From Betaproteobacteria bacterium (GTDB lineage Bacteria > Pseudomonadota > Gammaproteobacteria > Burkholderiales > CAIKXV01): a stretch of DNA of 38,289 nt. The position numbers were made by a program, and so were the translations under genes. Below, piece after piece: positions 6,310 through 23,256 of this stretch (position 1 is the stretch's first letter; each line of letters opens with the position of its first letter). The stretch is from NCBI GenBank assembly GCA_947458265.1, contig CANGYF010000026.1, positions 1 through 38,289 on the forward strand, written 5' to 3'. Below the pieces are notes generated by a model. The model was not told where the DNA came from, ran no database searches, and saw only the letters and a list, made by a program, of their open reading frames with translations.

Positions 6310-7257
6310 ATGCTTGCGCAGGTCCATGCCGGTGTACAGCGAGGCAACCTGCTCGGCATAGCCGTTGAACATCAGGGTCTCGCGCTTGAGGAACTCGCCG
6401 ATGCGCCGCTCTCGCGCCTGGCTCCAGCGCGGATGGTCGACCTTCGGGTTCACGTTCGAGTAGAAGCCGTACTCGTTCGGCGCCGAACGCACCCAGGCGG
6501 TGGTCGGCATCTGCTCGACGAAGCGGATGCGCACGATCGACTTGCCGCTCTTGAAGCCGTACTTCCACGGCACCACCAGCCGCACCGGCGCGCCGTTCGG
6601 GTTGGGCATCAGTTCCCCGTACAGGCCCAGGCCGAGCAGGGTCAGCGGATGCATCGCCTCGTCGATGCGCAGGCCCTCGACATAGGGCCATTGCAGCACC
6701 GGATCCTTCTGGCCGGGCATCTGCTTCGGATCGAGAAGGGTATGGAACTCGACGAACTTCGCGTTCGCGGTCGGCTCGACCTGCTTGATGAGTTCGGACA
6801 GCGAATAGCCGGCCCACGGCACGATCATCGACCAGGCCTCGACACAGCGCAGCCGGTATATGCGTTCCTCGATCGGGGCGAGTTTGAGCAGTTCCTCGAT
6901 GCCGAAGGTGCGCGGCTTGCGCACCTCACCCTCGACCGCGACCGTCCACGGACGGGTGCGGAAGTTCTTCGAGTTGCGCAGCGGATCGGACTTGTCGGTG
7001 CCGAACTCGTAGAAGTTCGTGTACGAGGTGATCTGCTCGTAGGTGTTGAGCGGATCCTTTACCGTGTAGGCGGCCGGCGCCGGACGCAGCCCGGCGATCT
7101 TCTCGCGCGTCTGGGCATGGGCTTCGCCCGGCAGTGCACCGGTGCCGGCCAGCGCCAGCGCACCGGCGGCGCCGAACATGAACTGGCGACGGTCCTCGTA
7201 AACCGACCGGGAGGTGATCTCTGACGGACGGATGTCGTCGGGGCGCTTGATCAGCAT
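6304..7257 (-). CDS. msrP: Protein-methionine-sulfoxide reductase catalytic subunit MsrP
   Basis: 317 aa. Periplasmic molybdopterin enzyme that repairs oxidised methionines in exported proteins. The start at 7257 has GGAG 7 nt upstream; a longer start at 7275 is less likely. A Tat-type signal is visible ([20 protein letters not shown], with a twin Arg at 23-24). The molybdenum-ligating cysteine is Cys138 in [12 protein letters not shown], and the family blocks [12 protein letters not shown] and [17 protein letters not shown] follow. The usual membrane heme partner MsrQ is not encoded next to it: upstream is a COG4315-type lipoprotein and downstream a non-coding interval. It may rely on an MsrQ elsewhere or on another electron donor. 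Confidence 0.95.
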
Positions 7258-7395
7258 CGGGAGTCTCCAGGACACGCTGCGGGTTGTTGCCGCATTCTAC
7301 GGGACGGATACCGCGGGGCGCCTCAGGATGCGATCTGCCGGTGCCTGCGGGTGGCGATAGACAGAAGTCCGCCGCGAACGGGGTGGAGAACGGGA

Positions 7396-7794
7396 TCAGG
7401 GGCGGGCCAGACTCCATACCTTGTTCCAGCCATCGCCGTTACGGTCGCCCGGCCTGGTGTCCTTGATCCAGGTATAGAGCGGCTTGCCCTTGTAAGCCCA
7501 CTGCAGGCTGCCATCGTCGCGGATGATGATCGTGTAGTCGCCTGCGGCCCGATCGGCAGCGGTGGCGCCCAGCGGCGGCCAGTTCTTCGCACAGCCAGCC
7601 ACGCAGGCACTCTTGCCACCGGCATCTTTTTCGTAGGTGTACAGGCTCATGCCCCTGCCATCGACCAGCGCACCGCTGGCGACCTTCGCAGGCGCAGCGC
7701 CGCCGAACAGCGCGCAACCGGAGAGCGTGAGGGCAAACATCGAAACGACCGCGAACAGCGCGGCACGCACGCGCAGGCTGGCGAGCAGGCTCAT
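7396..7794 (-). CDS. COG4315-type secreted-repeat lipoprotein
   Basis: 132 aa. A type II signal peptide with lipobox LSGC (around residue 27) predicts an outer-membrane or periplasmic lipoprotein. The mature part holds two copies of the secreted repeat of unknown function: GRGMSLYTYEKDAGGKSAC with CAKNWPPL, then GSLQWAYKGKPLYTWIKD. Two cysteines in CVAGC may form a disulfide. The ATG has AGGAG 9 nt upstream. Function in the family is unknown. It precedes msrP in the same direction with a 138-bp gap, so co-transcription is possible but not shown. Confidence 0.85.
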   Translation of the reverse strand: MSLLASLRVRAALFAVVSMFALTLSGCALFGGAAPAKVASGALVDGRGMSLYTYEKDAGGKSACVAGCAKNWPPLGATAADRAAGDYTIIIRDDGSLQWAYKGKPLYTWIKDTRPGDRNGDGWNKVWSLARP

Positions 7795-7827
7795 CGTTAT
7801 CAGCTCCTGGACGATTGAAGGATCGGG

Positions 7828-7951
7828 AAATCCGGGTCAGACACGGATTCTGGCGGCAGTTCTGCAAATCCGGGGCTGAAAACCCGGGTCAGACACGATT
7901 TTCCGACCGGAACGCCTGCGGGCGCTGGTAAACCGTGTCTGACCCGGATTT
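7828..7951. repeat. REP-like locus 1: three units
   Basis: Units are at 7828-7849 (+, core GGTCAGACA), 7879-7902 (+) and 7929-7951 (-). The second and third are inverted and could fold into a long hairpin with CCGGGTCAGACACG as the stem; the intervening bases contain a smaller CGCC-TGCG-GGCG hairpin. The locus lies between the mgtE stop (7977) and the lipoprotein start (7794), both on the minus strand, where it could protect or end the mgtE message. Confidence 0.85.
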
Positions 7952-7976
7952 CAGGAGACGATGCGGGGAAGGCGCA

Positions 7977-9431
7977 TCAGATGAGGAAAAGCGTCGCCAG
8001 GCCGAGGAAGATGAAGAAGCCGCCGCTGTCGGTCAGTGCGGTAATCAGTACCGAGGAGCCCATCGCCGGGTCGCGGTCCAACCAGCGCCGGCCGAGCGGG
8101 ATCAGCACGCCGGCCAGCGCCGCCAGCAGCAGGTTCAGCGTCATCGCCGCCATGATCACGATCGACAGCGGGACGCTGCTGTAGAACAGCCAGACGACGA
8201 CGCCGACGATGCTGCCCCAGACCAGGCCGTTGATCAGCGCGATGGTCATCTCCTTGATGAACAGCTTGCGCGCACTGTCGCGGCTGATCTGGCCGAGCGC
8301 GAGTGCGCGCACGATCATGGTGATCGTCTGGTTGCCGGCGTTGCCGCCGATGCCGGCGACGATCGGCATCAATGCGGCGAGCGCCACCAGCTTCTCGATC
8401 GAGCCTTCGAACGCGCCGATCACGCGCGAGGCGATGAACGCGGTCACCAGGTTCACCGCCAGCCAGGTCCAGCGGTTCTTCAAGCTGTCCCAGACCGGCG
8501 CGAAGATGTCCTCTTCCTCGCGCAGGCCGCTCGCCTTCAGCTTCTCGGCCTCGGACGCCTCGCGAATGTAGTCGACGACCACGTCGACGGTCAGCCGGCC
8601 GAGCACCTCGCCCTGATCGTCGACCACGGGCGCGGAGATCAGGTCGTAGCGTTCGAAGGCGGTCGCGGCATCGCGCGCATCGTCGTCCGGATGGAAGCTG
8701 ACCACGTTGCGGTCGACCAGCGTCGCGACCTCGATCTCCGGCTCGTTCACGAGCAGCTTCTTCAGCGGCAGCACGCCGCGCAGGAGCCCCTTGCGATCGA
8801 CCACGAACAGCTTGTCGGTGTTGCTCGGCAGCTCGTCGAGCCGGCGCAGGTAGCGCAGCACGACCTCGATCGTCACGTCCTCGCGGATGGTGACCATCTC
8901 GAAATCCATCAGGCCGCCGACGCTGTCCTCCGGGTAGGAAAGCGCCTCGCGCAGCTGCTCGCGCTCCTCGGCCGACAACGACTTGAACAGGTCGGCGATC
9001 ACCTCGTCCGGCAGGTCGCGCGCAAGGTCGGCGATCTCGTCGGTGTCGAGTTGCTCGGTCGCAGCTACCAGCTCGCCGCGGTCCATGTCCGCGATCAGCG
9101 TTTCCCGGACCGCGTCGGACACCTCGAGCAGGATCTCGCCGTCCCGATCCGCCTTGACCAGTTGCCAGACGCGCAGACGATCATCGAGCGGCAGCGCTTC
9201 CAGGATCAGCGCCACGTCGGCCGGATGCAGCGCGTCGAGGCGCGACTGCAGCTCAGCCTCGTTCTGCTTGTGCACGAGCGAATCGACCAGCGGCTGGCGA
9301 TCGGTCAGGCTGCCGCTGCGCCCCTCACCCTCGCGATGCGCCAGCGACTCGACCACGCGCTGGCGCCGCAGAAGATCCGTGATCTCCTGCAGGGATTCCT
9401 GCACGCTGCGCGGTTCGTCGACGTCGGCCAT
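7977..9431 (-). CDS. mgtE: Magnesium transporter MgtE
   Basis: 484 aa. Dimeric inner-membrane Mg2+ channel gated by cytosolic Mg2+. The order of parts is typical: a helical MgtE N domain (about 45-160, with LDALHPADVALILEALP and RDLPDEVIADLF), a CBS pair (about 165-285, including VDRKGLLRGVLPLKKLL and DDQGEVLGRLTVDVVVDYI), and a C-terminal membrane domain of about five helices, with the pore-lining family sequence GIGGNAGNQT. The ATG at 9431 has no strong ribosome site. Downstream is a three-unit REP-like locus; upstream is the RAYT element. Confidence 0.95.
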   Translation of the reverse strand: MADVDEPRSVQESLQEITDLLRRQRVVESLAHREGEGRSGSLTDRQPLVDSLVHKQNEAELQSRLDALHPADVALILEALPLDDRLRVWQLVKADRDGEILLEVSDAVRETLIADMDRGELVAATEQLDTDEIADLARDLPDEVIADLFKSLSAEEREQLREALSYPEDSVGGLMDFEMVTIREDVTIEVVLRYLRRLDELPSNTDKLFVVDRKGLLRGVLPLKKLLVNEPEIEVATLVDRNVVSFHPDDDARDAATAFERYDLISAPVVDDQGEVLGRLTVDVVVDYIREASEAEKLKASGLREEEDIFAPVWDSLKNRWTWLAVNLVTAFIASRVIGAFEGSIEKLVALAALMPIVAGIGGNAGNQTITMIVRALALGQISRDSARKLFIKEMTIALINGLVWGSIVGVVVWLFYSSVPLSIVIMAAMTLNLLLAALAGVLIPLGRRWLDRDPAMGSSVLITALTDSGGFFIFLGLATLFLI

Positions 9432-9481
9432 GGCAATGGCTCGCGGCCCGGTTCAATGGTGGCGCGATTGTATGCGCCCTT

Positions 9482-9545
9482 AATCCGGGTCAGAGACGAT
9501 TTATCGCAGAAACCTGCGTCAATAACTCGGGTCAGACACCATTTT
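9482..9545 (+). repeat. REP-like locus 2: two direct units left of the RAYT
   Basis: Unit 9482-9504 has core GGTCAGAGA (B type). Unit 9521-9545 has core GGTCAGACA (A type), with a T in place of the first C of the arm. Both are in plus orientation and lie upstream of the transposase gene and of the mgtE start (9431, minus strand). Confidence 0.88.
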
Positions 9546-9689
9546 CCAAGCGCGCCAGGGCCGATGCTGCGGAGCGCAACGCGGAGCCTCCGACGTGGCC
9601 GGACGTATGCCGGACAAGGCAGACCTATGCGCAGGCAAGTCGCGTTTCCCGGGATGGCGTCACTCTCGGTACCAGTACACCCTGCGCAG

Positions 9690-10400
9690 ATGCCCAGGCG
9701 CCCCAGACTCCACATCAGTTCGATGCCGCAGCATGTCGTCCAGCGCGGGAACAACCGGGCGACGTGCTTCCGCTCCGACGAAGATCGCCGCCACTACCTG
9801 CGATGGCTGGCAGATGCGGCAGGTCGGTGCGGCTGCCATATTCACGCCTATGTCCTGATGACCAACCATGTGCACTTGCTGCTGACAGGCGACAGCGACA
9901 CGTCCATTCCAGGGCTGATGCAATCGCTGGGCACCCGCTTTGCCCGCTATGTAAACCGACGGTACGAGCGCACCGGTACGCTCTGGGAGGGCCGGTACCA
10001 CGCAAGCCTGGTGGACAGCGAAAGCTACCTGCTCGGATGCATGCGGTACATCGAGGCGAACCCGGTGCGCGCGGCTATCGCTGCCTCGCCAGCCGCCTAT
10101 CGCTGGTCGAGCTTTCGCTGCAATGCGATGGGGGAGACGGATGAACGGATCACGCCGCACCCCGCGTACGAAAAGCTGGGCGATCGGCCGGAGGCGCGCT
10201 GTGCAGCGTATACCCTCCTGTTCGAGCAGGCCCTGCCGGCAGAGGAGCTCGCCTGCATTCGCGACTCTACCCGAGGCGGGCTGCCCACCGGGAGCGACGC
10301 CTTCCGCGAATGGGTGGCCGCCCGCCTCGGCTCGGTTGCTGTCCCGTTGAAGCGGGGGCGCCCGGTTGCTCGGCGCGGAGAAGGTATAAATCGTCTCTGA
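9690..10400 (+). CDS. REP-associated tyrosine transposase (RAYT, Y1_Tnp / TnpA_REP family)
   Basis: 236 aa from the ATG at 9690, chosen because MPRRPRLHISSMPQHVVQRG is the usual RAYT N-terminus; the frame is open far upstream across antisense mgtE, which is not real coding. Single-strand DNA endonuclease of the HUH type. The metal-binding HxH is His60-Val-His62 in MTNHVHLL, and the likely nucleophile is Tyr113 in SESYLLGCMRYIEANPVRA. Other family blocks are YERTGTLWEGRYHASL and YRWSSFRCNA. RAYTs act on REP hairpins and spread as domesticated single-copy genes. Its TGA stop (10398-10400) is inside the right-hand repeat. No clear ribosome site is visible. It appears full length and intact. Confidence 0.92.
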   Translation: MPRRPRLHISSMPQHVVQRGNNRATCFRSDEDRRHYLRWLADAAGRCGCHIHAYVLMTNHVHLLLTGDSDTSIPGLMQSLGTRFARYVNRRYERTGTLWEGRYHASLVDSESYLLGCMRYIEANPVRAAIAASPAAYRWSSFRCNAMGETDERITPHPAYEKLGDRPEARCAAYTLLFEQALPAEELACIRDSTRGGLPTGSDAFREWVAARLGSVAVPLKRGRPVARRGEGINRL

Positions 10401-10450
10401 CCCGGATTGTCGTAAATCGTCTCTGACCCGGATTTTCGCGACCCGGGTTT
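10386..10450 (-). repeat. REP-like locus 3: two direct units plus a fragment right of the RAYT
   Basis: Units at 10386-10408 and 10413-10436 are both in minus orientation with core GGTCAGAGA. A half-unit acccgggttt follows at 10441-10450 and runs directly into the mtgA stop codon (10450-10452). The first unit supplies the RAYT stop codon. Confidence 0.88.
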
Positions 10451-11145
10451 CAGGGCACGGTGGCGCGGGGCATGCGGGACTGGATGATCTCGGTGTAGCG
10501 GGCCAGCCAGCGCGAGCCGCGGTTGCGGTCGTAGAAGCGTGGGTTGGGCACCATGGCGGCGAGGCGGGCGGCCTGTGCGGGTGTCAGTTGGGCGGCCGAG
10601 ACGCCGAAGTAGTGGCGTGCGGCGGCCTCGGCGCCGAACACGCCGTTGCCCCACTCGATCACGTTCAGGTAGATCTCGAGGATGCGGCGCTTGTCCATCG
10701 TCTGTTCGAGCATCAGGGTGATCGCGGCTTCCTGCACCTTGCGCGTCCGGGTGCGCGCATCGGACAGGAAAAGGTTCTTCGCCAGCTGCTGGCTGATCGT
10801 CGAGCCGCCGCGTACCACCCGTCCCTGCTTGCGGTTCTGCTCGAGCGCCTTCTGGATCGCGTCCCAGTCGAAGCCTTCGTGGTCGACGAACTTGTCGTCC
10901 TCCGCGACAATGATCGCGCGCTTCAGGTGGATCGAGATGCGATCGTACGGTACCCACTGATGCCGCAAGCGCGCCTTCGCGTCCTTCTCCTGAAGCTGCT
11001 CCAGGCGCAGGCGCATGAACGAGGTCTCAGCCGGGTTCTCGTACTTCCAGTAGACCACGTGCCCGAACAGCCAGAGCTGCCAGGCCAGCAAGGCACCGAG
11101 CGCAAGCAGCAGCAGTCGGGCAGTCCAGCGGAAGAGCGTGCGCAC
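10450..11145 (-). CDS. mtgA: Monofunctional biosynthetic peptidoglycan transglycosylase
   Basis: 231 aa from a GTG at 11145, giving the typical short cytoplasmic start (VRTLFRWTARLL) and one membrane anchor (about 8-28). Family 51 glycosyltransferase that polymerises lipid II into glycan strands in the periplasm. Motifs are IIVAEDDKFVDHEGFD (catalytic Glu in AEDDKF), RGGSTISQQLAKNLFLS, and KRRILEIYLNVIEWGNGVFG. The frame is open upstream into aroE, but those residues look unlike protein. It is the last gene of a minus-strand row RNase II-TonB-aroE-mtgA. Its stop lies at the edge of a REP-like fragment. Confidence 0.93.
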   Translation of the reverse strand: MRTLFRWTARLLLLALGALLAWQLWLFGHVVYWKYENPAETSFMRLRLEQLQEKDAKARLRHQWVPYDRISIHLKRAIIVAEDDKFVDHEGFDWDAIQKALEQNRKQGRVVRGGSTISQQLAKNLFLSDARTRTRKVQEAAITLMLEQTMDKRRILEIYLNVIEWGNGVFGAEAAARHYFGVSAAQLTPAQAARLAAMVPNPRFYDRNRGSRWLARYTEIIQSRMPRATVP

Positions 11146-11192
11146 GGCAGGATCGGTCGCGGAGGTGGCGGTCTGTCCGTCGACGGACGCGC

Positions 11193-12026
11193 TCAGTGGC
11201 CGGCCCGGGCGCCGCGCCACGGCTGTGCCAGCCCTGCGAGCACGCCAGCCGTGGACGGCCGCACGCCGCGCCAGAGCAAGAACGACTCCGCCGCCTGCTC
11301 GACCAGCATGCCGATGCCGTCGGCGATGCGCGCGCCGTCGCGCGCCGCCGCAGCCAGGAACGCCGTCGGCTCGACCGAATACATCATGTCGTAGCACAGC
11401 CCGCCCGGCACCAGCCGCGCGCGCCCGGTGGACGGTGCCTCGGAACCAAGGCTGGCCGAAGTGGCATTGACGATGATCTCGAACTCGCCCTCGATGGCTT
11501 CGAGCGCCCCGCCGGTGACCGGCGTACCGGCATGGCGTGCCGCCAGTGCCTCGGCGCGCGCAGCCGTGCGGTTGGCCACGTGCAGCAGCCGCACGCCGGC
11601 GTCGAGCAAGGGCAGCACCACCCCGGCCGCTGCGCCGCCCGCCCCGAGCATCAGCACCCGCGCGCCGGCCAGTGGCTGCCCGAGGTTGACCTCGATGTCG
11701 CGCACCAGTCCGACGCCATCGGTGTTGTCACCGAAGACCGTGCCATCGGGTTCGAAGCGCAGTGTATTGACCGCCTCTGCCGAAGCAGCTCGCGCACTGC
11801 AGGTCGTCGCGAGCAACCAGGCCTCGCGCTTGAACGGCAACGTGACGTTCGCCCCGCGTCCGCCATCACGGCGGAACGCCTCCACCGTCTCGGCAAAGCC
11901 GTCGATCGGCGCCAGGATGCGCTCGTAGACGATGTCCTGCCCGGTCTCGGCCGCGAACGCCGTGTGGATCGCGGGCGAGCGGCTGTGCGCAACGGGATTG
12001 CCGAACACGGCGTAGCGATCGCTCAT
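11193..12026 (-). CDS. aroE: Shikimate dehydrogenase
   Basis: 277 aa. NADP-dependent reduction of 3-dehydroshikimate in aromatic amino-acid synthesis, cytosolic. The shikimate-binding N-terminal block is FGNPVAHSRSPAIHTAFA; the catalytic Lys is in NVTLPFKREAW and the Asp in FGDNTDGVGLVRD. The Rossmann motif is MLGAGGAAAGVVLPL, followed by the NADP-selective NRTAARAEALA. The ATG has GAGGAA upstream. It starts 13 nt after the TonB-family gene and ends 47 nt before mtgA, consistent with one operon. Confidence 0.96.
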   Translation of the reverse strand: MSDRYAVFGNPVAHSRSPAIHTAFAAETGQDIVYERILAPIDGFAETVEAFRRDGGRGANVTLPFKREAWLLATTCSARAASAEAVNTLRFEPDGTVFGDNTDGVGLVRDIEVNLGQPLAGARVLMLGAGGAAAGVVLPLLDAGVRLLHVANRTAARAEALAARHAGTPVTGGALEAIEGEFEIIVNATSASLGSEAPSTGRARLVPGGLCYDMMYSVEPTAFLAAAARDGARIADGIGMLVEQAAESFLLWRGVRPSTAGVLAGLAQPWRGARAGH

Positions 12027-12039
12027 CGGTTCCTCTGCC

Positions 12040-12987
12040 TCACTGCCCCATGAACTGCTCGCCCGTGGTGAAGCTCCACGTGCGGGTGATCGCCAGGATG
12101 TCGGTGTCCTTCGCGATGTCGGGCGGGAATCTGGAAAACGGCGCTGCCAGTTCGACGATGCGGATCGCCGCCTGGTCGAGCAGCCTGAAGCCGGACGAAC
12201 GATTGACTTCGATGCTGTCTACCGATCCGTCCCGCCGCACCGACACCGTGAGCACCAGCGTGCCGTACAGCTTCTGTCGCCGCGCCTCGTCCGGATAGTT
12301 CAGATTGCCGACGCGTTCGATCTTGCCACGCCAGTCCTCGACATAGCGCGCGAATCGGTCCTCCTGCGCACGCGCACCGACGAACTGCTTGCGCGGCCGC
12401 TCCTGGTAGGCGCTGAACTCCTTCGACAGTTCCGCCCGCAGGCGCGCCATCTCGAGGCTGCGCGAAGCAAGGTCGGCCGAACTCGGCGTGGCCGCAGGCT
12501 GCGACTGCGGCACCGGCTGCGGGCCCGGAGTGGTGTCGCGGTTGTCGATCGGCACCGCGGACTTGATGCGCGCCATCACGCGCTGCGTCTCGGCCTCGAG
12601 TTCCGCCACCCGCGCGCGGGCAGCCGCAGCCGGATCAGGCACGTCGGCGCCAGTTGGCGACTGCGGCAGCGGCGTCTTCGCACGCACCTTCGCATCGGTG
12701 TTACCGCCGCCGTCGAGGTTGGACTGCGCGCGCACATCGGCGTTCAGCGGCGCCTGAAGGGTACGCGCGTTGACCAGCACCACCTCGATAGGCGCCGGCG
12801 CGGCCGACCGGCCGCTGCTGTCGGGCAGCGTGAAGTGCGTCGCAAGCAGCGTGGCATGCACCAGTACCGACACGATGACCGTCAGCATCAGCGTACGGTT
12901 CGCAGGTGCCACGTAGGAGAACGGCGGCGCCAGGAACAGCGCCTCAGGCGCCGGGTAGCGGTTGGGCAACCGGATCAGCGAGGCCAC
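12040..12987 (-). CDS. TonB-family energy-transducing protein
   Basis: 315 aa from a GTG at 12987. A cytoplasmic segment of about 30 residues precedes one membrane helix (about 33-51, LMLTVIVSVLVHATLLATHF). A Pro/Gln/Ala-rich periplasmic region with a short coiled coil (VAELEAETQRVMARIK) follows, then a C-terminal TonB domain (about 220-310, with NYPDEARRQKLYGTLVLTV and the RRDGSVDSIEVNRSSG block). Such proteins pass proton-motive force to outer-membrane receptors. No ExbB/ExbD genes are adjacent. The position beside aroE and the RNase II gene is common in betaproteobacteria. Confidence 0.9.
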   Translation of the reverse strand: MASLIRLPNRYPAPEALFLAPPFSYVAPANRTLMLTVIVSVLVHATLLATHFTLPDSSGRSAAPAPIEVVLVNARTLQAPLNADVRAQSNLDGGGNTDAKVRAKTPLPQSPTGADVPDPAAAARARVAELEAETQRVMARIKSAVPIDNRDTTPGPQPVPQSQPAATPSSADLASRSLEMARLRAELSKEFSAYQERPRKQFVGARAQEDRFARYVEDWRGKIERVGNLNYPDEARRQKLYGTLVLTVSVRRDGSVDSIEVNRSSGFRLLDQAAIRIVELAAPFSRFPPDIAKDTDILAITRTWSFTTGEQFMGQ

Positions 12988-13084
12988 GGCATCGGCTGCG
13001 GGAGCGGGCAGGTCACCATGGCGCGGATTCTAGGCGAGCAGCCGCGGGCTGTCATGCGTTATCGGGACGCGGGACGGCCCCCGT

Positions 13085-14977
13085 TCAGGCCAACGCTTCG
13101 GCGAAGGTCAGGTCGAGCAGCAGGTCGTACAGGTCGATGCGATCGACCACCAGCCGGACCCGGGTACCCGCCGCCAGTTCCGGCACCGAAGGCACCCTGG
13201 CCACGATCGGCACGCCGGACAGGCGCACGAGGTTGTCGCGGATCACCTCGCCGTCGATCGACGTCAGCCCCTGCTGCCCGATCCACACCAGCGACCAGTA
13301 GCGCTCGAGCGTGCGCTGCGCCTCGGCATAGGCTTCATAGGCGAGTTCGAAAGAGCGCATCGCGGCCAGCATCGCCTCGCTGCCGGCCGGATATGGCGGC
13401 ACCTCGCCACGCACCCAGCTCGCGATCTGCCGCTGGTTGATCAGGTCGACCATCCGGCGCAGCGGTGAGCTGGCCCAGGTGTAGTGCGCGACACCCAGCC
13501 CCTGGTGCGGGGAGGCGACGGTGGTCATGAACACCTTGCCGCTCGACTGTGCACGGTAGATCGCCGGCACCTGCGCGCGCGCGAGCTCGCCGCCCCACTG
13601 GCTGTTGGCGAAGATCATCAGTTCGGCCACCAGCGTGTCGAGCGGCGCGCCGCGTGCGCGCGGCCGCAGCGTGATCGTCTCGCCCTCGACGATGAACGTG
13701 TACTCGACCCGTCCGCTGCCGGTCTCGGCCTGCTTGCCGCGCATCGACTGCAGCTTCTGCGCGAAACCCCAGAGCGTCCACAGCTCGCGTCCGCGTGCAT
13801 GGTCCAGGCGCGGATCGGGCAACGCAGCCGCCTTCGCCAGCGCGTCCGTGGTGAAGCAGGGTTCGAGGTGCTCCAGCCGCAGGTTGTCGGCCACCTGCAC
13901 CCGTTCGACCGCAGAACGGGTCGAGCGCACGGTGAAGTCGGCGTCGACATCGACATAGAGCGACACCGCGGGCACGGTGCGCCCTTCGGCCAGCGTGAAG
14001 CGCTCGACCACCGCATCGGGCAGCATCGTGATCTTGCGTCCGGGGAAGTAGGCAGTCGACAGGCGCGACAGCGCGACCTCGTCCAGCGCCGAGCCGGCCG
14101 CGATGCCGAGCGAGGGCGCGGCGATGTGCACGCCGATACGCCAGCCGCTGCCCAGCGGCTGCACCGAGAAGGCGTCGTCGATCTCGGTGGTGGCGGTGTC
14201 GTCGATCGAGAAAGCCGCCACGTCCGCGGTCTCGAGCGCAGGCAGCGGCGCGAGCAGCGCGTCGAGCCCCCCGGACCCTGCACCATCCAGCGCGAAGCCG
14301 GTGCCGGCACGGAAGTGCTCGAACAGGAAGCGGCCGAAGTGGAAATCGTGCGCCGAGGCGATCGCCCCGCAGTGCTGCATCAGGTGCGGCACGCTCAGGC
14401 CCGACTCGGCACACGCCGCCTCGACCGCCTTCCAGGCGATCGTCTGCTTCTCGGGCGCGTACAGCAGCGACGGCACCAGCGGCCGTATCGCCTCGGGCAG
14501 CTCGCCCGCCACCAGCGCGACCGTCCACTGCGCCTGCTGCTCGGCCTCGCGCTTGCGCCGCTCGACACCGGCCAGCGCGGCCTTGAGCGACTCGGCAGGC
14601 GCCCGCTTGTACAGGCCCTTGCCGCGCTTGTAGAAGTACATCGGGTTGGCATGCAGCCGTAGCAGCATCGCCGCGCGCTCGATTGGGGATGCGGTCTTGC
14701 CGGCGGCCGCGCCGAAGTACTCGCTCGCGGCATCGTCGAACCCGAACTCGTCGGCGGTGATCGCCTCCCACAGGAAACCGGGGTCGAGCGTGTCGGCCAG
14801 CGCCTTCGCATCGTCCAGCAGCGACTTCGGTGCCGGCGCCTCGAAGCGGAACAGCACGTTGGAAGCCTTCACCTTCGAGCGCTTGCCGTGCGGCGCCTCG
14901 ACCTGCAGCGAGGTGGTGTTGTCGGCGAGCACGCTGCCAGCCCGCAGCTCGCCTTCTTCCTCGTAAAAAACGTTCAT
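13085..14977 (-). CDS. RNase II/RNase R-family exoribonuclease
   Basis: 630 aa from the ATG at 14977 (MNVFYEEEGELRAGSVLADN), the standard start of this betaproteobacterial family; the frame is open to 15031. Processive 3'-5' RNA exonuclease. A cold-shock-like N-terminal region leads to the RNB catalytic domain, whose metal-binding aspartates lie in FSIDDTATTEIDDAFSV (about 274-290). The conserved substrate-channel motif is SSPLRRMVDLINQRQIA near 525-540. The C-terminus (about 585-630) looks like an S1-type fold. Two tandem hairpins and a TATACT box lie upstream (15032-15091). Confidence 0.92.
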   Translation of the reverse strand: MNVFYEEEGELRAGSVLADNTTSLQVEAPHGKRSKVKASNVLFRFEAPAPKSLLDDAKALADTLDPGFLWEAITADEFGFDDAASEYFGAAAGKTASPIERAAMLLRLHANPMYFYKRGKGLYKRAPAESLKAALAGVERRKREAEQQAQWTVALVAGELPEAIRPLVPSLLYAPEKQTIAWKAVEAACAESGLSVPHLMQHCGAIASAHDFHFGRFLFEHFRAGTGFALDGAGSGGLDALLAPLPALETADVAAFSIDDTATTEIDDAFSVQPLGSGWRIGVHIAAPSLGIAAGSALDEVALSRLSTAYFPGRKITMLPDAVVERFTLAEGRTVPAVSLYVDVDADFTVRSTRSAVERVQVADNLRLEHLEPCFTTDALAKAAALPDPRLDHARGRELWTLWGFAQKLQSMRGKQAETGSGRVEYTFIVEGETITLRPRARGAPLDTLVAELMIFANSQWGGELARAQVPAIYRAQSSGKVFMTTVASPHQGLGVAHYTWASSPLRRMVDLINQRQIASWVRGEVPPYPAGSEAMLAAMRSFELAYEAYAEAQRTLERYWSLVWIGQQGLTSIDGEVIRDNLVRLSGVPIVARVPSVPELAAGTRVRLVVDRIDLYDLLLDLTFAEALA

Positions 14978-15031
14978 CAGGGCCGCAGTCGGTGAAGCGC
15001 GCATGAAGGCCGCATTGCAAACGTACGGCAT

Positions 15032-15091
15032 CGGGCAGCCCAGCTGCCCGGACGGACGCGCAGTGCGTCCATGCGCCGGGCGCGCAGTATA
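15032..15091 (-). promoter_or_regulatory. Putative -10 box and tandem hairpins in the RNase II leader
   Basis: On the minus strand a TATACT hexamer (15091-15086) has no good -35 partner. Downstream come two perfect hairpins: GGACGC-loop-GCGTCC (15054-15070) and CGGGCAG-loop-CTGCCCG (15032-15050). If transcription starts near 15079, the RNase II message would have a structured leader of about 100 nt. Alternatively the hairpins could end the upstream esterase transcript, though no T-run follows. Confidence 0.35.
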
Positions 15092-15143
15092 CCGGAGCGA
15101 CCTGCTTCCGCCGCCCGCCCGGGCAGGCCGGCGACCGCTACGC

Positions 15144-15761
15144 TCAGCCGGCGCGAGTCCGCGGCCGTCGGGCGCGCGCCATCGGGTCAGGCGGCGCCAG
15201 CATGCCGGCGAAGCGCAGTACGTCGTCGATGTGGTCGGTGAAGCTGGAGAACCCGTGATCGCCGCCCTCGACGATCACCTGCCGGGCACCAGCATACTTC
15301 GCGACGGCCTGGCGCCAGTCGAGCACTTCGTCGCCGGTCTCGACCAGCAGCAGGTAGCGCTCCGGACGGGTCACCGGCTCGACCTCCAGCGCCGCAAGCT
15401 CCGCGATGTGTGCCGGTGTCAGCGCCCACTTCTCGCCGGAATGAAGGTTCTGCTGCTCGCCGACGAACGGCGCCAGCAGCACATGCGGCTGCACAGCAGG
15501 GTTCACCAGTACCGCCCTCGCACCATGCTTCTCGGCCAGGTGGGTGGCATAGAAGCCGCCGAGCGAACTGCCGATGAAGGTGACGCCGGAGGCATCGGCC
15601 GGCAGCAGCACGTCGATCGAGGCGATCGCCTCTTTCGGGGAGTGCGGCAGCGCAGGACAGGCGAGCTGGTCGAGCAGGTCGAGGTCGGCCATGCGCGCTT
15701 CGACCAGGCGGGCCTTGAGCGACTGCGGAGAACTGTTGAAGCCGTGCAGGTAGACGATCAT
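15144..15761 (-). CDS. YqiA/UPF0227-family alpha/beta-hydrolase (esterase)
   Basis: 205 aa. Small cytosolic esterase fold. It opens with MIVYLHGFNSSPQSLKA, the family's oxyanion region. The nucleophile elbow is GSSLGG (Ser in TFIGSSLGGFYA), the acid lies near LLLVETGDEVLDW, and the His is in VEGGDHGFSSF. YqiA of E. coli hydrolyses short acyl esters; the natural substrate is unknown. It starts the minus-strand row leading to the RNase II gene (gap 166 bp, with hairpins). The kelch operon diverges upstream. Confidence 0.9.
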   Translation of the reverse strand: MIVYLHGFNSSPQSLKARLVEARMADLDLLDQLACPALPHSPKEAIASIDVLLPADASGVTFIGSSLGGFYATHLAEKHGARAVLVNPAVQPHVLLAPFVGEQQNLHSGEKWALTPAHIAELAALEVEPVTRPERYLLLVETGDEVLDWRQAVAKYAGARQVIVEGGDHGFSSFTDHIDDVLRFAGMLAPPDPMARARRPRTRAG

Positions 15762-15946
15762 CTTGGGTGTCGGGTAGGACGCACGGCGGACTGCCGGCCG
15801 GCCCCAAGGATAGCTGGTCAGCCGGCCGGTACGCGTTTACGATGGCGTTGAAGCGGGCAGCATGCAGGCGCCGCTCCCGGGCCGGGCATCCCCGTCCGAC
15901 GGGGGCGCAGGCAAGACCCGCACCGTCCGACCCTGGAGGAGTACCC

Positions 15947-17035
15947 ATGCAAGCCATCATCCGACGCTGCCTGACCCGTTCTGCAGCGCGCCTCGCGCTG
16001 GCCACCGCGCTCGCCCTGTCCGTCCTGCTGGGCGCTGCACTGCCGGACGCAGCCCATGCGCAGAAGTGGTCCAGCGCTGCCCCGATCCCGGTCGGCGCCG
16101 AAGAGGTCTACGGCATCGCCGCCGGCGGCAAGCTCTACGTGTTCGGCGGCCTCGCGCCAGGCTGGAAGCCGATGGGCATGGTGTTCGAATACGACCCGGC
16201 AGGCGACCGCTGGACGCGCAAGCGCGACATGCCGGCCTTCCTGCACCACGTCGCGCTGGCCACGGTGAACGGGAAAATCTACATGTTCGGTGGCTTCGAA
16301 CTGCCGGCCAAGGGTGCGCCGGCCTGGGCGCCGGTGCGCACCACCTGGGAATTCGACCCGGCCACCGACACCTGGCGCCAGATGGCACCGGCCCCGATGG
16401 CGCGCGGTGCGCACAACGCGGTGGTGATCGACAACCGCATTCACCTGGTCGGCGGCGCCGGCCTGCATCCCGGCTCGAAGGAGACCGCGCTGCATCCGGC
16501 GCGTCCGCACCGGGCGCTGGGCACGCACGAGGTGTTCGATCCGGCGACCAATGCCTGGTCGACCCGCGCCGACATGCCGACCGCGCGCAACCATGCCGCC
16601 GCGGGCGTGGTGGATGGCCGCATCTACGTGATCGGCGGGCGCCTCGGCTCGGTGTTCATCACCACCGCGACCAATACCGACCTCGTCGAGGAATACGACC
16701 CGGCCACCGACAGCTGGGGACGGCTGCTCGCGCCGATGCCCAACCCGCGCAGCGCGGTGGCCTGGGGCGTACATGGCGGACGCATCTACGTGATCGGTGG
16801 CGAGGTGCGGCATCGCGACTACTGGGCGACGTTCGCGGCGGTCGATGCGTTCGACCCGAAGTCCAACAGCTGGACGCGCATGCCGCCGCTGCCGATGCCG
16901 CGGCACGGGCTCGCAGCGGACTTCATCGGCAACCGGCTGCACGTGGTGAGCGGACAGGTGCAATCGGGCACCAACACGCCGGGGCTGGTCGCGAACACCG
17001 ACCGACATGATGTACTGACGCTGGGCGGCAACTGA
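15947..17035 (+). CDS. Exported kelch-repeat beta-propeller protein
   Basis: 362 aa from the ATG at 15947, which has GGAGG 8 nt upstream; the frame is open to 15767 without a signal. A Sec signal peptide spans about 1-34 (LALATALALSVLLGAALP, ending at AHA-Q). The rest is about six kelch repeats with the GG and spaced Tyr/Trp pattern: GKLYVFGGLAPGW, GKIYMFGGFELP, NRIHLVGGAGL, GRIYVIGGRLGS and GRIYVIGGEVRH, each followed by a FDPATDTW-like strand. It probably folds into a periplasmic propeller that binds a protein or a metal centre. Its stop overlaps the next ATG (TGATG). A small CCCCGT-CCG-ACGGGG hairpin lies in the leader at 15890-15904. Confidence 0.88.
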   Translation: MQAIIRRCLTRSAARLALATALALSVLLGAALPDAAHAQKWSSAAPIPVGAEEVYGIAAGGKLYVFGGLAPGWKPMGMVFEYDPAGDRWTRKRDMPAFLHHVALATVNGKIYMFGGFELPAKGAPAWAPVRTTWEFDPATDTWRQMAPAPMARGAHNAVVIDNRIHLVGGAGLHPGSKETALHPARPHRALGTHEVFDPATNAWSTRADMPTARNHAAAGVVDGRIYVIGGRLGSVFITTATNTDLVEEYDPATDSWGRLLAPMPNPRSAVAWGVHGGRIYVIGGEVRHRDYWATFAAVDAFDPKSNSWTRMPPLPMPRHGLAADFIGNRLHVVSGQVQSGTNTPGLVANTDRHDVLTLGGN

Positions 17036-17604
17036 TGCATACGGGCGAGCGGCGGGCGGTGCTTGAGCGCGCTCGTACGGCGGAGGCACGCGCGGCAGCG
17101 GGGAGGACCCCTGCGGCCGTTCTGCTGCTCGTGCTGGCGTCCGTGATGCCGTCCGCTGCGTCCGCGCAGCCAGCCTCGCCGCCAGCGGGTGCCGCGGCGC
17201 CTGCTTCCAGGGCGATCGAGTGCGCCAGCGGCTTCCCCGGCGGATCGCGTGCCACGTCGGCCGGATACACGATCGCCTGGCGCGCCGATCCGCAGAAGAT
17301 CCCGGTCGGCCGCCACTTCGCCATCGACCTGCTGGTCTGCCCGAAGGCCGGGCCTGCCGGGGCTGCCGGGACTGGCACGGCGCCGGGTTCACCGGCCGCC
17401 GTGCCGGTAGCGGTAGCGGTCGATGCGCGCATGCCATCGCATGGCCATGGCATGAACTACAAGCCGACCCTGAAGCTGGTCGGCGAGAACCGCTACCGCG
17501 CCGAGGGGCTGATGTTCCACATGCCGGGGCAGTGGGAGCTGGTGTTCGACCTGCGCACCGGGGATAAGGTCGAGCGGGCCACCCAGGCGGTGACGGTCCG
17601 CTGA
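17035..17604 (+). CDS. Exported YtkA-like domain protein
   Basis: 189 aa. After a charged N-terminus, a hydrophobic segment (about 27-43, AAVLLLVLASVMPSAASA) acts as a signal peptide or anchor. The mature part holds a YtkA/FixH-like immunoglobulin-type fold: IPVGRHFAIDLLVCPK, then DARMPSHGHGMNYKP and GLMFHMPGQWELVFDLR. The Met/His cluster MPSHGHGM suggests copper or another metal, but this is inference. It is coupled on both sides by TGATG overlaps with the kelch and cytochrome peroxidase genes. The annotated ATG gives a long N-region; an internal start is possible. Confidence 0.75.
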   Translation: MHTGERRAVLERARTAEARAAAGRTPAAVLLLVLASVMPSAASAQPASPPAGAAAPASRAIECASGFPGGSRATSAGYTIAWRADPQKIPVGRHFAIDLLVCPKAGPAGAAGTGTAPGSPAAVPVAVAVDARMPSHGHGMNYKPTLKLVGENRYRAEGLMFHMPGQWELVFDLRTGDKVERATQAVTVR

Positions 17605-18929
17605 TGCGGGCCGTCGGCGCGAGCGCGATGCGGCTGCGCAGGCTCGCGCTCGCTGCGGCGCTGGGCGCCACCTGCGCCGCAGCGGGCTGGCCGCCCGGGG
17701 CGGTATCCGCGGCGGCCCTGGCGCCAGGGGCGCGGTCGTCGCCTGAATCGTCGCCCCTATCGTCGACCATCGCGTCGACCGCAGCCGACCCACGCCGGCC
17801 AGGGCGGATGGATGCCGACGTCCGGGACGCGATCCTCGGCCATGGCCCGTGGCCACCACCGCCGGTACGCGATCCGAGCAACCGGGTGGCTGCATCGGCT
17901 GCGGCGGCCGTGTTCGGCCGCACGCTGTTCTTCGATCCGCGGCTGTCGACCGACGGCACGATCGCCTGCTCCACCTGCCATCTGCCCGAGTTCGGCTACA
18001 CCGACCGGCGACCGGTCGGCATTGGACTGGCAACGACCGATCGCAACACCAAGTCGGTCGTCGATGCCCGCTTCAACCGCTGGTACGGCTGGTCCGGGGC
18101 GACCGACAGCCTGTGGGCGGCGAGCCTGCGGCCGCTGCTCGATCCGCGCGAGATGGGCAGCGCCGAGCGCCATGTGGTCGAGCGGCTGCGAAACGAGCCC
18201 GATCTCGCCGCCGGCTACCGGCGCGTGTTCCGCGAAAGCCCCGACCGCGTCGACGACGGCCGCCTGTTCGCGGATGTCGGCAAGGCCCTGGCCGCCTTCC
18301 AGAACACGCTGATCAGCCGCCGCAGCGCGTTCGACGACTATCGCGATGCACTCGCCCGCGGCGACCAGCGCGCGCAGTCACGCTACCCTGCCGACGCGCT
18401 GCGCGGCCTGCAACTGTTCGTCGGCCGCGCCCAGTGCAACCTCTGCCACCTCGGGCCGCAGTTCAGCAACGGCGAGTTCGACCGCGTCGGCATCAGCGTG
18501 CGTCGGCCGGACGGACGCATCGACTGGGGCCGGCACGACGGCATCAAGGCGCTGCAGTCGAGCCGTTTCTCGCTGCTCGGCCGGTTCAACGACGACCCGT
18601 CACGCTCGACTGCCGGCAGCACACGGCATGTCGCGCTGACTGCGGAAAACTACGGACAGTTCCGCGTTCCCAGCCTGCGCAACGTCGCCCGCACCGCGCC
18701 GTACATGCACGACGGCTCACTCGCCACCCTGACCGAGGTCGTTCGCCACTACTCCACGATCGACGCCGTGAAGCTGCACCTGGCGATGCCGCATGCACAC
18801 GGCGAACCGGGCGACGACCTGCCATCGCGCCCGATCGAGACCTTCCCGCGCACGCTCGACCTGACCGAACGCGAGATCGCCGACCTCGTCGCCTTCCTCG
18901 AGTCCCTCACCGAACGCCCGCGCCGCTGA
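17604..18929 (+). CDS. Di-heme cytochrome c peroxidase / MauG-family protein
   Basis: 441 aa. Periplasmic enzyme with an N-terminal signal (LRRLALAAALGATCAAAG). Two c-type heme sites are present: CSTCH at 122-126 and CNLCH at 278-282. Typical family blocks are LFFDPRLSTDGTIACSTCH, FRVPSLRNVARTAPYMHDG and LVAFLESL. Known members reduce hydrogen peroxide or modify partner proteins (MauG). The third gene of a fully overlapping operon with the kelch and YtkA-like genes, so the three likely act as one periplasmic module. The transcript ends at a REP-like inverted pair (18934-18984). Confidence 0.93.
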   Translation: MRAVGASAMRLRRLALAAALGATCAAAGWPPGAVSAAALAPGARSSPESSPLSSTIASTAADPRRPGRMDADVRDAILGHGPWPPPPVRDPSNRVAASAAAAVFGRTLFFDPRLSTDGTIACSTCHLPEFGYTDRRPVGIGLATTDRNTKSVVDARFNRWYGWSGATDSLWAASLRPLLDPREMGSAERHVVERLRNEPDLAAGYRRVFRESPDRVDDGRLFADVGKALAAFQNTLISRRSAFDDYRDALARGDQRAQSRYPADALRGLQLFVGRAQCNLCHLGPQFSNGEFDRVGISVRRPDGRIDWGRHDGIKALQSSRFSLLGRFNDDPSRSTAGSTRHVALTAENYGQFRVPSLRNVARTAPYMHDGSLATLTEVVRHYSTIDAVKLHLAMPHAHGEPGDDLPSRPIETFPRTLDLTEREIADLVAFLESLTERPRR

Positions 18930-18933
18930 CCAG

Positions 18934-19024
18934 AAAAACCGTGTCTGACCCGGGTTTCCTAAAATCCGGGTCAGACACGGTTTTCCGGAAAATCGTCTCT
19001 GACCCGGATTTTCGACCCGGATTA
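18934..19024. repeat. REP-like locus 4: three alternating units, possible bidirectional terminator
   Basis: Units are at 18934-18957 (-), 18961-18984 (+) and 18988-19012 (-), with a fragment gacccggatta at 19014-19024. The first two form a hairpin of about 23 bp with a 3-nt loop and one mismatch, followed on the plus strand by TTTT; the second and third form an alternative hairpin. The third unit carries the GAGACGA variant. The locus lies between convergent genes (the peroxidase ends at 18929, the amidase at 19037), so it can serve as a terminator for both. Confidence 0.9.
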
Positions 19025-19036
19025 TCGCGGCAGGGG

Positions 19037-20221
19037 CTAGGCGAGCTTGCGGGCGAGGTCGAGCAGGAGGGTGTCGTTGCCGCGCCCGGCGATCAGCGAC
19101 AGGCCGAGCGGACAGCCGTCGAGCGTGGCCATCGGCAGGCTGACCTGAGGCAGGCGAGCGAGACCGGCGATGCAGAGGATCGCCAGCGCACGCGCGCGGA
19201 AGTCGTCGATCTCGGCCGAGGGCGCGCCGATCTTCGGGGCGATGCCGGGCGAGGTCGGCAGCACCAGCACGGCATTGCCGGCGAGCAGGCGTTCCATCCG
19301 GCGTGCGATCTCTTCGCGCTTGGACGCTGCGGCGAGCAGCATGCCGCGGTCGACGGTCGATGCCCAGGCAAAACGTTCCTTCACGCCCGGGCCGATCTGC
19401 GGCTTGTGTTCGGTGATCCAGGCCCCGAGCGACTGCCAGGCCTCGTGCGCCTGGACCACGCGGAAGACGTTCATGCCCCAGTCATCGAGTCCTTCGGCTG
19501 CGAGGGTCACGGCCTCGGCCTTGCCGAGCATCGACTCGACCTTGGCAACCGCCGCCTGCAGCGCGGCACCGACCGGCGCGCCCGCCCGCTCGAACGCGTC
19601 GGACGCCAGCAGCAGCCGGCCCGGCGTGGCGGCCGGCGCCGTGTCGCCAAGCAGCACCCGCCCGACCTTCTCCAGCGCGGCGGCATCGCGGGCGAACCAG
19701 CCAGCGGTGTCGAACGACGGCCCAAGCGGACAGGCGCCGTCGAGCGACACGCGCCCATGCGACGGACGCATGCCATACAGGCCACAGAAGCTCGCCGGCA
19801 GGCGCACCGAACCACCGGTGTCGCTGCCCAGCGCGAAGTCGACCAGCCCAGCGGCAGTGGCCGCGGCCGATCCGCTCGACGAGCCACCGGTGTCGCGTCC
19901 CGGCGCGTTCGGGTTGAGCACCGATCCGTAATGGACATTCTCGCCGTTCAGACTGTAGGTGAGCTCGGCGGTCTGGGTCTTGCCGGCCAGTGACGCACCC
20001 GAATCGACCAGCTGCTGGACCGCCACCGCGGTGCGCGCAGCCGGGCCATGCGTCTCGAGCCAGGTCGGGCTGCCGAAGGTCACCCGGTGTCCGGCGACGT
20101 CGTAGATGTCTTTCGCACCGAAGGTCAGCCCGGCGAGCGGACCGGACGTCGCACCGGCGAGCTCGGCATGGGTTTCGCGGACGAAGGCATTGAAGGTATC
20201 GCGGTCGAGGATCGAGGGCAT
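19037..20221 (-). CDS. Amidase-signature family amidase
   Basis: 394 aa. Cytosolic amidohydrolase of the GatA/AS superfamily, which cleaves amides to acid and ammonia. The Ser-cisSer-Lys triad is visible: Lys37 in LTFGAKDIYDVAG, Ser114 in DTGGSSSGSAAA and Ser138 in GSDTGGSVRLPAS. The C-terminal motif PQVSLPMATLDGCPLGLSLI is typical of shorter amidases. No ribosome site is obvious at the ATG. It starts 25 nt after the amidohydrolase gene, so they probably share a transcript. The substrate is unknown. Confidence 0.9.
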   Translation of the reverse strand: MPSILDRDTFNAFVRETHAELAGATSGPLAGLTFGAKDIYDVAGHRVTFGSPTWLETHGPAARTAVAVQQLVDSGASLAGKTQTAELTYSLNGENVHYGSVLNPNAPGRDTGGSSSGSAAATAAGLVDFALGSDTGGSVRLPASFCGLYGMRPSHGRVSLDGACPLGPSFDTAGWFARDAAALEKVGRVLLGDTAPAATPGRLLLASDAFERAGAPVGAALQAAVAKVESMLGKAEAVTLAAEGLDDWGMNVFRVVQAHEAWQSLGAWITEHKPQIGPGVKERFAWASTVDRGMLLAAASKREEIARRMERLLAGNAVLVLPTSPGIAPKIGAPSAEIDDFRARALAILCIAGLARLPQVSLPMATLDGCPLGLSLIAGRGNDTLLLDLARKLA

Positions 20222-20246
20222 GGCAGTCGCGGTAGTGGACGGGAAC

Positions 20247-21482
20247 TCAGGGACGATGGAGGGTAACCGGCTGCCGGGAAAAGGTCATCCGCCCGCGCTT
20301 GAAGCCCATCAGCACCGGCGGCAGCTCGGCGACCGCATGCTCCGGTGCGGTGGTGTCGATCACGACGAGGTCCGCGGAGAGGCCCACCTCCACACCGTAG
20401 TCGGCCCGGCGCAACAGCCTGGCCGAGCGGCGGGTGACCATGTCGAAGCACTCGCGGATGTCATCTCGCCGGCCGACATGGCAGACGTTCGCGTACAGGT
20501 TGGCCATGCGCAGCAACGAGCAGTCGCCGAACGGCGTGAACGGATTCAGGATGTTGTTGCTCGACAGGTTGCCGTTGACCCCGTGCGCCAGCAGCTCGTG
20601 CACCGGCAACACGCAGCGCAGCTTCTGGTATGCGCGGTCGCGGCCCATCAGGTAGAGGTCGGTGGCCGGCAGCACCGTGACCGCCACGCCGGAATCGGCC
20701 AGCCGCTGCGCGATGCGCGCGAAGCGTTCCGGCTCGACCATCGCCAGCTTGGTCACGTGCCCGATCGCCACCCGGCCGCCGTAGCGGTGCTTCTCGGTCA
20801 TGTCGCACACGTACTCGATGTCCATGTGGTCGGTGGCCATGCCGAAGTCCAGGTGCATGTCGATGTCCGCGTCGAACTCGCGTGCGATCTCGAAGATGCG
20901 ATCGATCTGCGCATGCGGGTCGGAGTCGCAGTAGGGTGCCGCCCCGATCACGCTCGCGCCCTGCTTCATGGCGGCCACGAGCAGTTCATCGGTCCCCGGG
21001 TTGCTGATAAGCCCCTCCTGGGGGAACACGCAGACCTCGATTTCGATCGCCCAGCGATACTCCTGCACCAGCGCGAGCACGCCCTCGAATCCGCGCAGCC
21101 CGACCACTGGGTCGACCTCGACATGGGTGCGCATCACGCCGGTGCCCTGCGCGATCGCCTTCTCAAGCGTACGCCGTGCGCGTTCGGTCACGTCCTGTTC
21201 GGTGAACGCCTTCTTCTGCAGCGCCACCTGCGCGATCGCCTCGTCGAGCGTGCCCTGCTCGGACGTGCAGCGGTCCAGGATGCAGCTCTTGTCGAGGTGG
21301 ATGTGGGTTTCCACGAAGCTCGGCGAGACCAGCCTGCCCTCGACGTCGATCGACTGCGCCGCCGGCGTGCCGATCGCGCCCGGAGGTTCGATCGCGACGA
21401 TGCGCCCCGCCTCGATGCCGATGTCGAAGGTCGCCTCATAGTCACGTCCGAGGACGCGTGCGTTGCGCAGCAGGGTATCCAT
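20247..21482 (-). CDS. Cytosine-deaminase-like amidohydrolase
   Basis: 411 aa from the ATG at 21482, with AAGGA 9 nt upstream; the frame is open to 21884 but crosses the REP-like repeats. Metal-dependent amidohydrolase of the CodA/TrzA type. Metal ligands are visible in ETHIHLDKSC, RTHVEVDP and AIGHVTKL, with the late Asp region HGVNGNLSSNNILNPF close to the family's usual GxDN motif. Members deaminate cytosine, isoguanine and similar rings, or hydrolyse cyclic amides. The neighbouring amidase fits a pathway that releases ammonia from an N-containing compound. An inverted REP-like pair forms most of its 5' leader. Confidence 0.85.
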   Translation of the reverse strand: MDTLLRNARVLGRDYEATFDIGIEAGRIVAIEPPGAIGTPAAQSIDVEGRLVSPSFVETHIHLDKSCILDRCTSEQGTLDEAIAQVALQKKAFTEQDVTERARRTLEKAIAQGTGVMRTHVEVDPVVGLRGFEGVLALVQEYRWAIEIEVCVFPQEGLISNPGTDELLVAAMKQGASVIGAAPYCDSDPHAQIDRIFEIAREFDADIDMHLDFGMATDHMDIEYVCDMTEKHRYGGRVAIGHVTKLAMVEPERFARIAQRLADSGVAVTVLPATDLYLMGRDRAYQKLRCVLPVHELLAHGVNGNLSSNNILNPFTPFGDCSLLRMANLYANVCHVGRRDDIRECFDMVTRRSARLLRRADYGVEVGLSADLVVIDTTAPEHAVAELPPVLMGFKRGRMTFSRQPVTLHRP

Positions 21483-21498
21483 CTCGCCATTCCTTCCG

Positions 21499-21566
21499 AA
21501 AATCCGGGTCAGAGACGGATTTTCCGGGAAAATCCGTCTCTGACCCGGATTAAGACCCGATTTTCG
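21499..21566. repeat. REP-like locus 5: inverted pair between divergent genes
   Basis: Units 21499-21523 (+) and 21529-21552 (-) pair over about 23 bp around the loop CCGGG. Each unit is also a palindrome: the first has perfect arms AAAATCCG and CGGATTTT around GGTCAGAGA. A fragment gacccgattttcg follows at 21554-21566. The locus is the gap between the amidohydrolase (start 21482, -) and the gamma-glutamyltransferase-like gene (start 21614, +), so it lies in the promoter or leader of one or both. Confidence 0.92.
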
Positions 21567-21613
21567 TTTGACGGTAAGCTCGGGGCAGGCTTCATCCACT
21601 GCGGAGCGGCATC

Positions 21614-23215: not shown

Positions 23216-23221
23216 GGCTGG

Positions 23222-23256
23222 GGGCTGACCCCAGGGTCAAACCCCAACGTCAGCCC
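23222..23256. terminator. Hairpin between convergent genes
   Basis: GGGCTGAC (23222-23229) pairs with GTCAGCCC (23249-23256); the 19-nt loop could add CCCC/GGGT pairing. It sits between the gamma-glutamyltransferase-like stop (23215, +) and the Bug stop (23283, -). No T-run follows, so it is a weak or Rho-assisted terminator at best. Confidence 0.45.

Follow-up and report, generated by a model that had tools for sequence, protein, structure and literature searches.

A TIRtron-like locus with a syntenic RAYT and a matching population of dispersed inverted repeats in a betaproteobacterial genus

Described RAYT systems and the locus in the window

Several systems in which a transposase of the RAYT type is accompanied by repeats have been described, and they are summarized here as given in the accessible parts of the papers cited. 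First, TIRtrons consist of a RAYT-like gene (TIRYT) with terminal inverted repeats (TIRs), some of which carry a GGGGWSAS motif; the TIRs overlap the gene ends in some cases, and dispersed TIR families, arranged as dimers or clusters, are present in some species (PMC3733652). Second, subclass 2.1 of the TnpA-Y1 transposases, equivalent to RAYT group 1, has a median length of 238 aa, the motifs NHVH, W(E/Q) and a YIELNP-like motif, and an extra C-terminal domain resembling HTH / DnaA-C; 20 of 26 TIRYTs have been placed in this subclass, and no REP-like sequences were found near its genes (Quentin et al. 2018, PMC6006769). Third, in REPtron orthogroups, syntenic RAYTs of related strains are associated with different repeat classes (Nunvar et al. 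2013, PMC3686654). In addition, the repeats of REPINs move in pairs as one unit that is linked to a RAYT (Bertels and Rainey 2011, PMC3116915; the link is also given in PMC8049555), and TnpA-REP of E. coli cuts single-stranded REPs (PMC8266576).

In the present study, a RAYT locus was analysed in a stretch of 38,289 nt (the window; contig CANGYF010000026.1) from the 4.01-Mb genome of a Betaproteobacteria bacterium (GCA_947458265.1, herein G000). The gene lies between mgtE and a transglycosylase gene, as identified from the Pfam matches of the window genes, and is bracketed by two repeat units per side; units of the same family occur at four dispersed sites.

7826-7950, no strand: dispersed site S1, three units (+ + -), pattern match
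9482-9504, + strand: outer left repeat unit, GAGACGA type, 23-nt inverted match
9523-9546, + strand: inner left repeat unit, GACACCA type, pattern match
9690-10400, + strand: Y1/HUH transposase gene (RAYT; subclass 2.1-like), 236 aa, Y1_Tnp E 2.9e-16
9864-9875, + strand: HUH motif NHVH, residues 59-62, from an alignment of 16
10047-10064, + strand: tyrosine motif YIEANP, residues 120-125, from an alignment of 16
10386-10408, - strand: inner right repeat unit, GAGACGA type, overlapping the stop codon, 23-nt inverted match
10411-10434, - strand: outer right repeat unit, GAGACGA type, pattern match
18933-19010, no strand: dispersed site S3, three units (- + -), of which the + - pair folds as one hairpin
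21498-21551, no strand: dispersed inverted pair S4 (+ -), one long palindrome, -29.3 kcal/mol, z -9.6
28495-28571, no strand: dispersed site, three units (+ - -), 26-nt outer arms fully complementary, z -11.2

The original prediction that an identical 23-nt inverted repeat flanks the RAYT, with the same variant in both units, was borne out: 9482-9504 is the reverse complement of 10386-10408 over all 23 nt (AATCCGGGTCAGAGACGATTTAT), GAGACGATTTAT is present in each, and a de novo search returned this repeat as the best inverted repeat at the locus (score 23; top of three shuffles 9). The TGA stop codon of the RAYT lies within the inner right unit. The locus also resembles a TIRtron in that CGGGTCAG agrees with GGGGWSAS at 7 of 8 positions, with one mismatch, while GGGGTCAG, the repeat of the ortholog in G006, agrees at 8 of 8. 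Since the repeat is thus a one-base variant of a published motif, elements of this kind (TIRtron/TIRYT) are already known; as to whether the repeat itself had been described, no paper on its exact sequence was found among the matches listed in the open-licence literature. Separately, automatic annotation could call a false long gene at 7935-10400 (+), where an 821-aa open frame extends antisense to mgtE and on into the RAYT frame.

Comparison with the motifs and lengths in Table 1 of PMC6006769 (accessible part) suggests that the RAYT fits TnpA-Y1 subclass 2.1 (RAYT group 1, TIRYT), with its 236 aa, NHVH, W99 E100 (a WE/WQ-type motif), YIEANP and an extra C-terminal domain. Among 16 aligned relatives, N59, V61 and H62 are invariant and H60 is present in at least 90%; Y120, I121, E122 and P125 are invariant in 16/16, and Y120 is, by homology, the presumed catalytic residue. 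The NCBIfam model REP_Tyr_transpos gave 74.8 bits, just below its cut-off of 80. A profile of the 16 relatives matched solved structures of Y1-fold transposases weakly (best E 1.4e-4), and TnpA-REP (4er8) was likewise matched weakly (E 2.8e-3). In the AlphaFold2 model (mean pLDDT 88.3; residues 222-236 under 50), the extra C-terminal domain comprises helices 167-177, 184-196 and 203-217 beyond the core; no C-terminal HTH was found among the Pfam families matched by the 16 members at E <= 1. The protein fits this subclass and not the classical GTAG RAYTs, and a classical REPtron (a GTAG REP with a RAYT of groups 2/3) was ruled out, as the unit consensus has no GTAG. The RAYTs associated with REPINs presumably belong to a different group from the RAYT of G000.

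Dispersed units, inverted pairs and palindromes

A search of the whole genome, as suggested by the original prediction, returned 83 exact matches to the pattern CGGGTCAGASACSR (44 forward, 39 reverse; 0 in the backward-read control), with a unit consensus of about RAAATCCGGGTCAGASACGRWTTTCC and the subtypes GAGACGA (43), GACACGG (25), GAGACGG (5), GACACCA (5), GACACGA (4) and GACACCG (1). Two further predictions agree with the data. First, the four dispersed window sites all lie between genes, as judged with a crude GC3 gene caller; by the same caller 73 of the 83 units are intergenic while 86% of the fetched DNA was called coding, a count in which the unit overlapping the 3' end of the RAYT figures as intergenic because the caller missed the RAYT. 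Only 4 of the 73 intergenic units lie between divergent genes. Second, the repeat differs from classical enterobacterial REPs: the unit lacks a GT(A/G)G tag, and the two single window units that were folded are no stabler than shuffles (z 0.20 and 1.24), so that the idea of each unit as a stable hairpin was ruled out for these two. In this the repeat also departs from the REPtron orthogroups, whose GT(A/G)G REPs have a palindromic unit (PMC3686654, accessible part). As for the classical REP types individually, GTAG was ruled out by the unit consensus, and CGTC, which is seen on the other strand of the GAGACGA subtype, by its absence from the GACACGG units.

The units are arranged mainly as inverted pairs. 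Among 41 neighbouring units less than 200 nt apart in G000, 24 face inward (+ -), the ++ and -- arrangements account for 7 each, and -+ for 3; the commonest arrangement is also that of the repeats bracketing the RAYT gene. Many dispersed inverted pairs also liken this system to REPINs as described in the accessible parts of PMC3116915 and PMC8049555, which have a different repeat. Five pair-containing stretches formed hairpins upon DNA folding, with z from -6.5 to -13.8. Such stable folding of pairs, together with the intergenic location of the units and their rarity between divergent genes, would favour a reading in which the palindromes serve the host as regulatory or structural sites under selection (terminators, gyrase or nucleoid protein sites) and the gene merely lies among them. 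We regard this as very improbable, since no terminator-like site was found between 9430 and 10460, where the RAYT lies; the pattern is no commoner than its control across 49 genomes from other genera of the same order (1 or 2 matches in 5/49; 1 or 2 for the backward control in 8/49); and inside the genus a different RAYT lineage comes with a different repeat class, as described below. In the window, Rfam gave no match at the gathering threshold.

The two arms of a pair tend to vary together. Agreement within pairs exceeded that between pairs in four of six sets, namely G000, G007, G010 and the type-B set of G006 (private variants), and it reached into flanks that are not common to different pairs; the 15 pairs of G009 and the 5 pairs of G003 showed no significant excess. 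The pairs were drawn from match-bearing fetched stretches (all 37 in G000; 20 each in G007, G010 and G006; 13 in G009; 7 in G003). With regard to the age of the subtypes, outer symmetry in G000 looked higher for GAGACGA pairs (0.88, n 13) than for GACACGG pairs (0.66, n 4), but the pairs are too few to carry weight. As a separate observation, 17 of 20 type-B pairs of G006 have a spacing of 35-39 nt, and their two arms carry matched changes. In G009, four pairs have a common spacer (identity 0.80-0.96) and outer flanks judged different on visual inspection, and a second spacer is common to another two (0.89); the highest shuffled comparison was 0.73. To us, a shared spacer with differing flanks suggests that the pair was copied as a whole; two of the four pairs, separated by 254 bases, may instead stem from a local duplication. 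Pairs of this kind were seen in G009 and not within G000.

Locus history and covariation of gene and repeat in the genus

The region 6600-23400 of the window was compared across 11 genomes of the genus, G000 among them. An orthologous RAYT is present at one syntenic locus in 6/11 genomes, with one copy per genome and with three different flanking repeats among them; the gene has the same neighbours, mgtE and the transglycosylase gene, in G000, G007, G010, G003, G004 and G006. The dN/dS ratio among the six orthologs is 0.14-0.25, and the gene is under purifying selection, syntenic and probably vertically inherited. At the same locus, neither gene nor repeat is present in G005, G001 and G009, a gene-less repeat pair (scar) is found in G008, and the contigs of G002 end there. 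The dispersed sites are also variable. S1 is absent in 7/7 relatives anchored on both sides. G002 and G003 have related units at the place of S3; there G006 and G008 have 49 bases of unrelated sequence, and G009 has another palindrome. The S4 place holds changed unit forms in G002, G003, G004, G006, G008 and G010, and no unit was seen there in G009. The G009 palindrome, AAAAGGGGCCAGGCCCCTTTT, has three copies at the intergenic place of 18933-19010 (L101, G009:C26:1-10200), as if this place were a hot spot.

These data bear on two alternatives. The first is an ordinary insertion sequence with terminal inverted repeats, the dispersed pairs being its internally deleted (MITE-like) descendants; it differs from a TIRtron reading mainly in whether the gene itself moves. 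The predominance of inward pairs oriented as around the gene, and the fact that gene and repeats are missing as a block in relatives, would suit it, but the single ortholog at the same locus in each of six genomes and the low dN/dS do not. Moreover, a search of the whole genome with Y1_Tnp at E <= 0.01 gave one match, the RAYT itself, and hence no recognisable partly deleted gene copies. We consider this alternative improbable. Slightly more improbable still, in our judgement, is a domesticated former transposase that no longer moves repeats, with pair symmetry arising from template-switch correction in replication. Purifying selection, synteny and an arm symmetry that runs into flanks private to each pair are in keeping with domestication; the presence of S1 in G000 but in none of the seven anchored relatives, and a dominant repeat class that varies with the resident gene from species to species, argue against it.

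The latter point is seen in the numbers of exact matches to four repeat classes per genome, given as GAGACGA / other CGGGTCAGASACSR / GGGGTCAGACCC / GGGGTCAGGGTCGATTT (gene-flanking copies included; assemblies mostly fragmented).

G000: 43/40/5/0
G007: 49/5/10/0
G010: 73/6/12/0
G003: 6/56/8/0
G004: 0/56/1/0
G006: 0/4/92/0
G009: 0/0/0/54
G002: 0/7/39/0
G008: 1/2/22/0
G001: 0/1/1/0
G005: 0/0/0/0

The flanking class of the resident RAYT is the largest of the four classes in 7/7 genomes, six with the ortholog and a seventh with another RAYT, although the margin in G000 is thin (43 GAGACGA units against 40 units of several other subtypes together). Only 1 of 420 label arrangements is as good as the observed one, which is not a clean probability because close species share repeats through kinship. 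A second type of RAYT (type B) shows the same tendency: its repeat, which belongs to its own RAYT and was for that reason not counted among the four classes, has 16-75 copies in the 5 genomes with the gene and 0-12 in the 6 without, and the two groups are still separated (29-75 against 0-16) when G010, whose B label comes from the flank only, is moved. The comparison of copy number with and without the RAYT, proposed at the outset, favours the predicted tie. Type-B RAYTs (L037 and L040; G006:C24, G004:C20) are about 295 aa long and have their own repeat, and sub-threshold C-terminal HTH matches were seen in two of them. A further RAYT of G009 (L042) has flanks too short and stands outside the flank judgement.

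The prediction had named many copies of the unit in relatives lacking a RAYT of this clade as evidence against it. A mild case exists: G002 and G008 hold a sister repeat type at 39 and 22 copies, and no matching gene was found in them; G008 carries the scar, and the contigs of G002 end at the locus.

RAYT repeats across the class and the proposed explanation

The wider family was surveyed with a protein-profile search of 369 genomes of the class, 139 of which had a match at E <= 1e-40. Flank analysis started from 116 loci (13 from the genus, 14 of 21 from another search and 89 among the class-wide matches listed), of which 114 gave an ORF and 109 had long enough flanks. GGGTCAG lies within the best de novo inverted repeat at 61/109 loci, that of G000 included, and the best repeat lacks exact GGGTCAG at 48/109. 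The inverted-repeat score was at least 14 at 82/109 loci and below 14 at 27/109; 76 of the 82 contain a GG(T/A)C(A/G)(G/A) box. Stems of at least 5 flank the box at 29 of these 76 loci (shuffled mean 9.5, maximum 19), so single-unit hairpins may hold for some lineages. The RAYT stop is the TGA of CTGACCC at 21/114 loci, a 3' overlap like those in the figure legends of Di Nocera et al. 2013 (PMC3733652, accessible part). Protein distance correlates with distance of the 10-nt extension over 72 loci (Mantel r 0.49; 0/2000 permutations as high), and ten repeat types, named after inspection and covering 54 of the 72 rows, can be mapped onto the protein tree with 10 changes, where shuffled types take 39.4 on average. 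No clear region was found in a column scan of the 72 proteins for specificity residues.

Copy number varies among these types. The ACTCG type, GGGGTCAGACTCG, is present in 8/8 genomes with a matching RAYT (1, 3, 3, 3, 4, 8, 30 and 33 copies) and in 26/361 other genomes of the class at no more than 8 copies, and AAGGGGTCARAGCCCTTT is present in 34/369 at no more than 11. These two class-wide types are mostly low-copy, so that the presence of a RAYT of this group does not by itself imply a large repeat population. The counts of 33 and 30 belong to G178 and G254, the other six genomes having 1-8. In another genome, a stretch of 42 kb (G382:C1:48569-90557) holds five RAYT matches whose scores are identical, which looks like a recent gene amplification.

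Taken with the genus data, the co-inheritance of repeat type and protein clade upholds the predicted tie between enzyme and repeat, which is well supported by covariation, and points to the RAYT as the enzyme that would spread the dispersed repeats. The predicted recognition core GGTCAGA(C/G)A fared less evenly: GGGTCAG is a shared box, but A(C/G)A and the following bases vary between lineages and look like the specificity part.

Herein, we propose that the locus is probably a TIR-type REPtron (TIRtron), in which a single vertically inherited transposase is accompanied by non-autonomous inverted pairs built from its flanking repeat. First, the enzyme would read a two-part site on single-stranded DNA, composed of the shared outer box GGGTCAG, perhaps bound by an invariant part of the protein, and a lineage-specific 3' extension, AGACGATTT in G000. 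Second, two inward-facing units would fold into one long hairpin, which the catalytic tyrosine would cut and rejoin. Third, the pair would be copied as a unit into new intergenic sites. The single-stranded substrate, the cleavage and the RAYT protein as the source of the activity are what we infer from these patterns. Beyond what the accessible part of PMC3733652 gives for TIRtrons, the repeat type changes here between orthologs at a single syntenic locus, pairs share spacers and arms have private symmetry; the within-genus series of genes and repeats and the shared-spacer pairs are useful additions. Tentatively, and with rather more doubt than assent, we also suggest that the orthologs form a natural allelic series, which would record at least two joint shifts of enzyme and repeat specificity in the genus and expose a two-part code (GGGTCAG and an evolvable 3' extension) and a step from low-copy group-1 TIRs to large populations of palindromic pairs.

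These results bear on the choice of repeat by a RAYT and on the question why only some RAYTs have large repeat populations. Orthologs at one locus have three repeat types with matching populations, and some species lack both gene and repeats; this series offers ready-made swaps for binding and cleavage tests. In contrast to subclass 2.1 in the accessible part of PMC6006769, where the group is reported without REP-like sequences, the matching class reaches 43-92 copies per genome in the six ortholog-bearing genomes; a group-1 RAYT can thus accompany a large matching repeat population.
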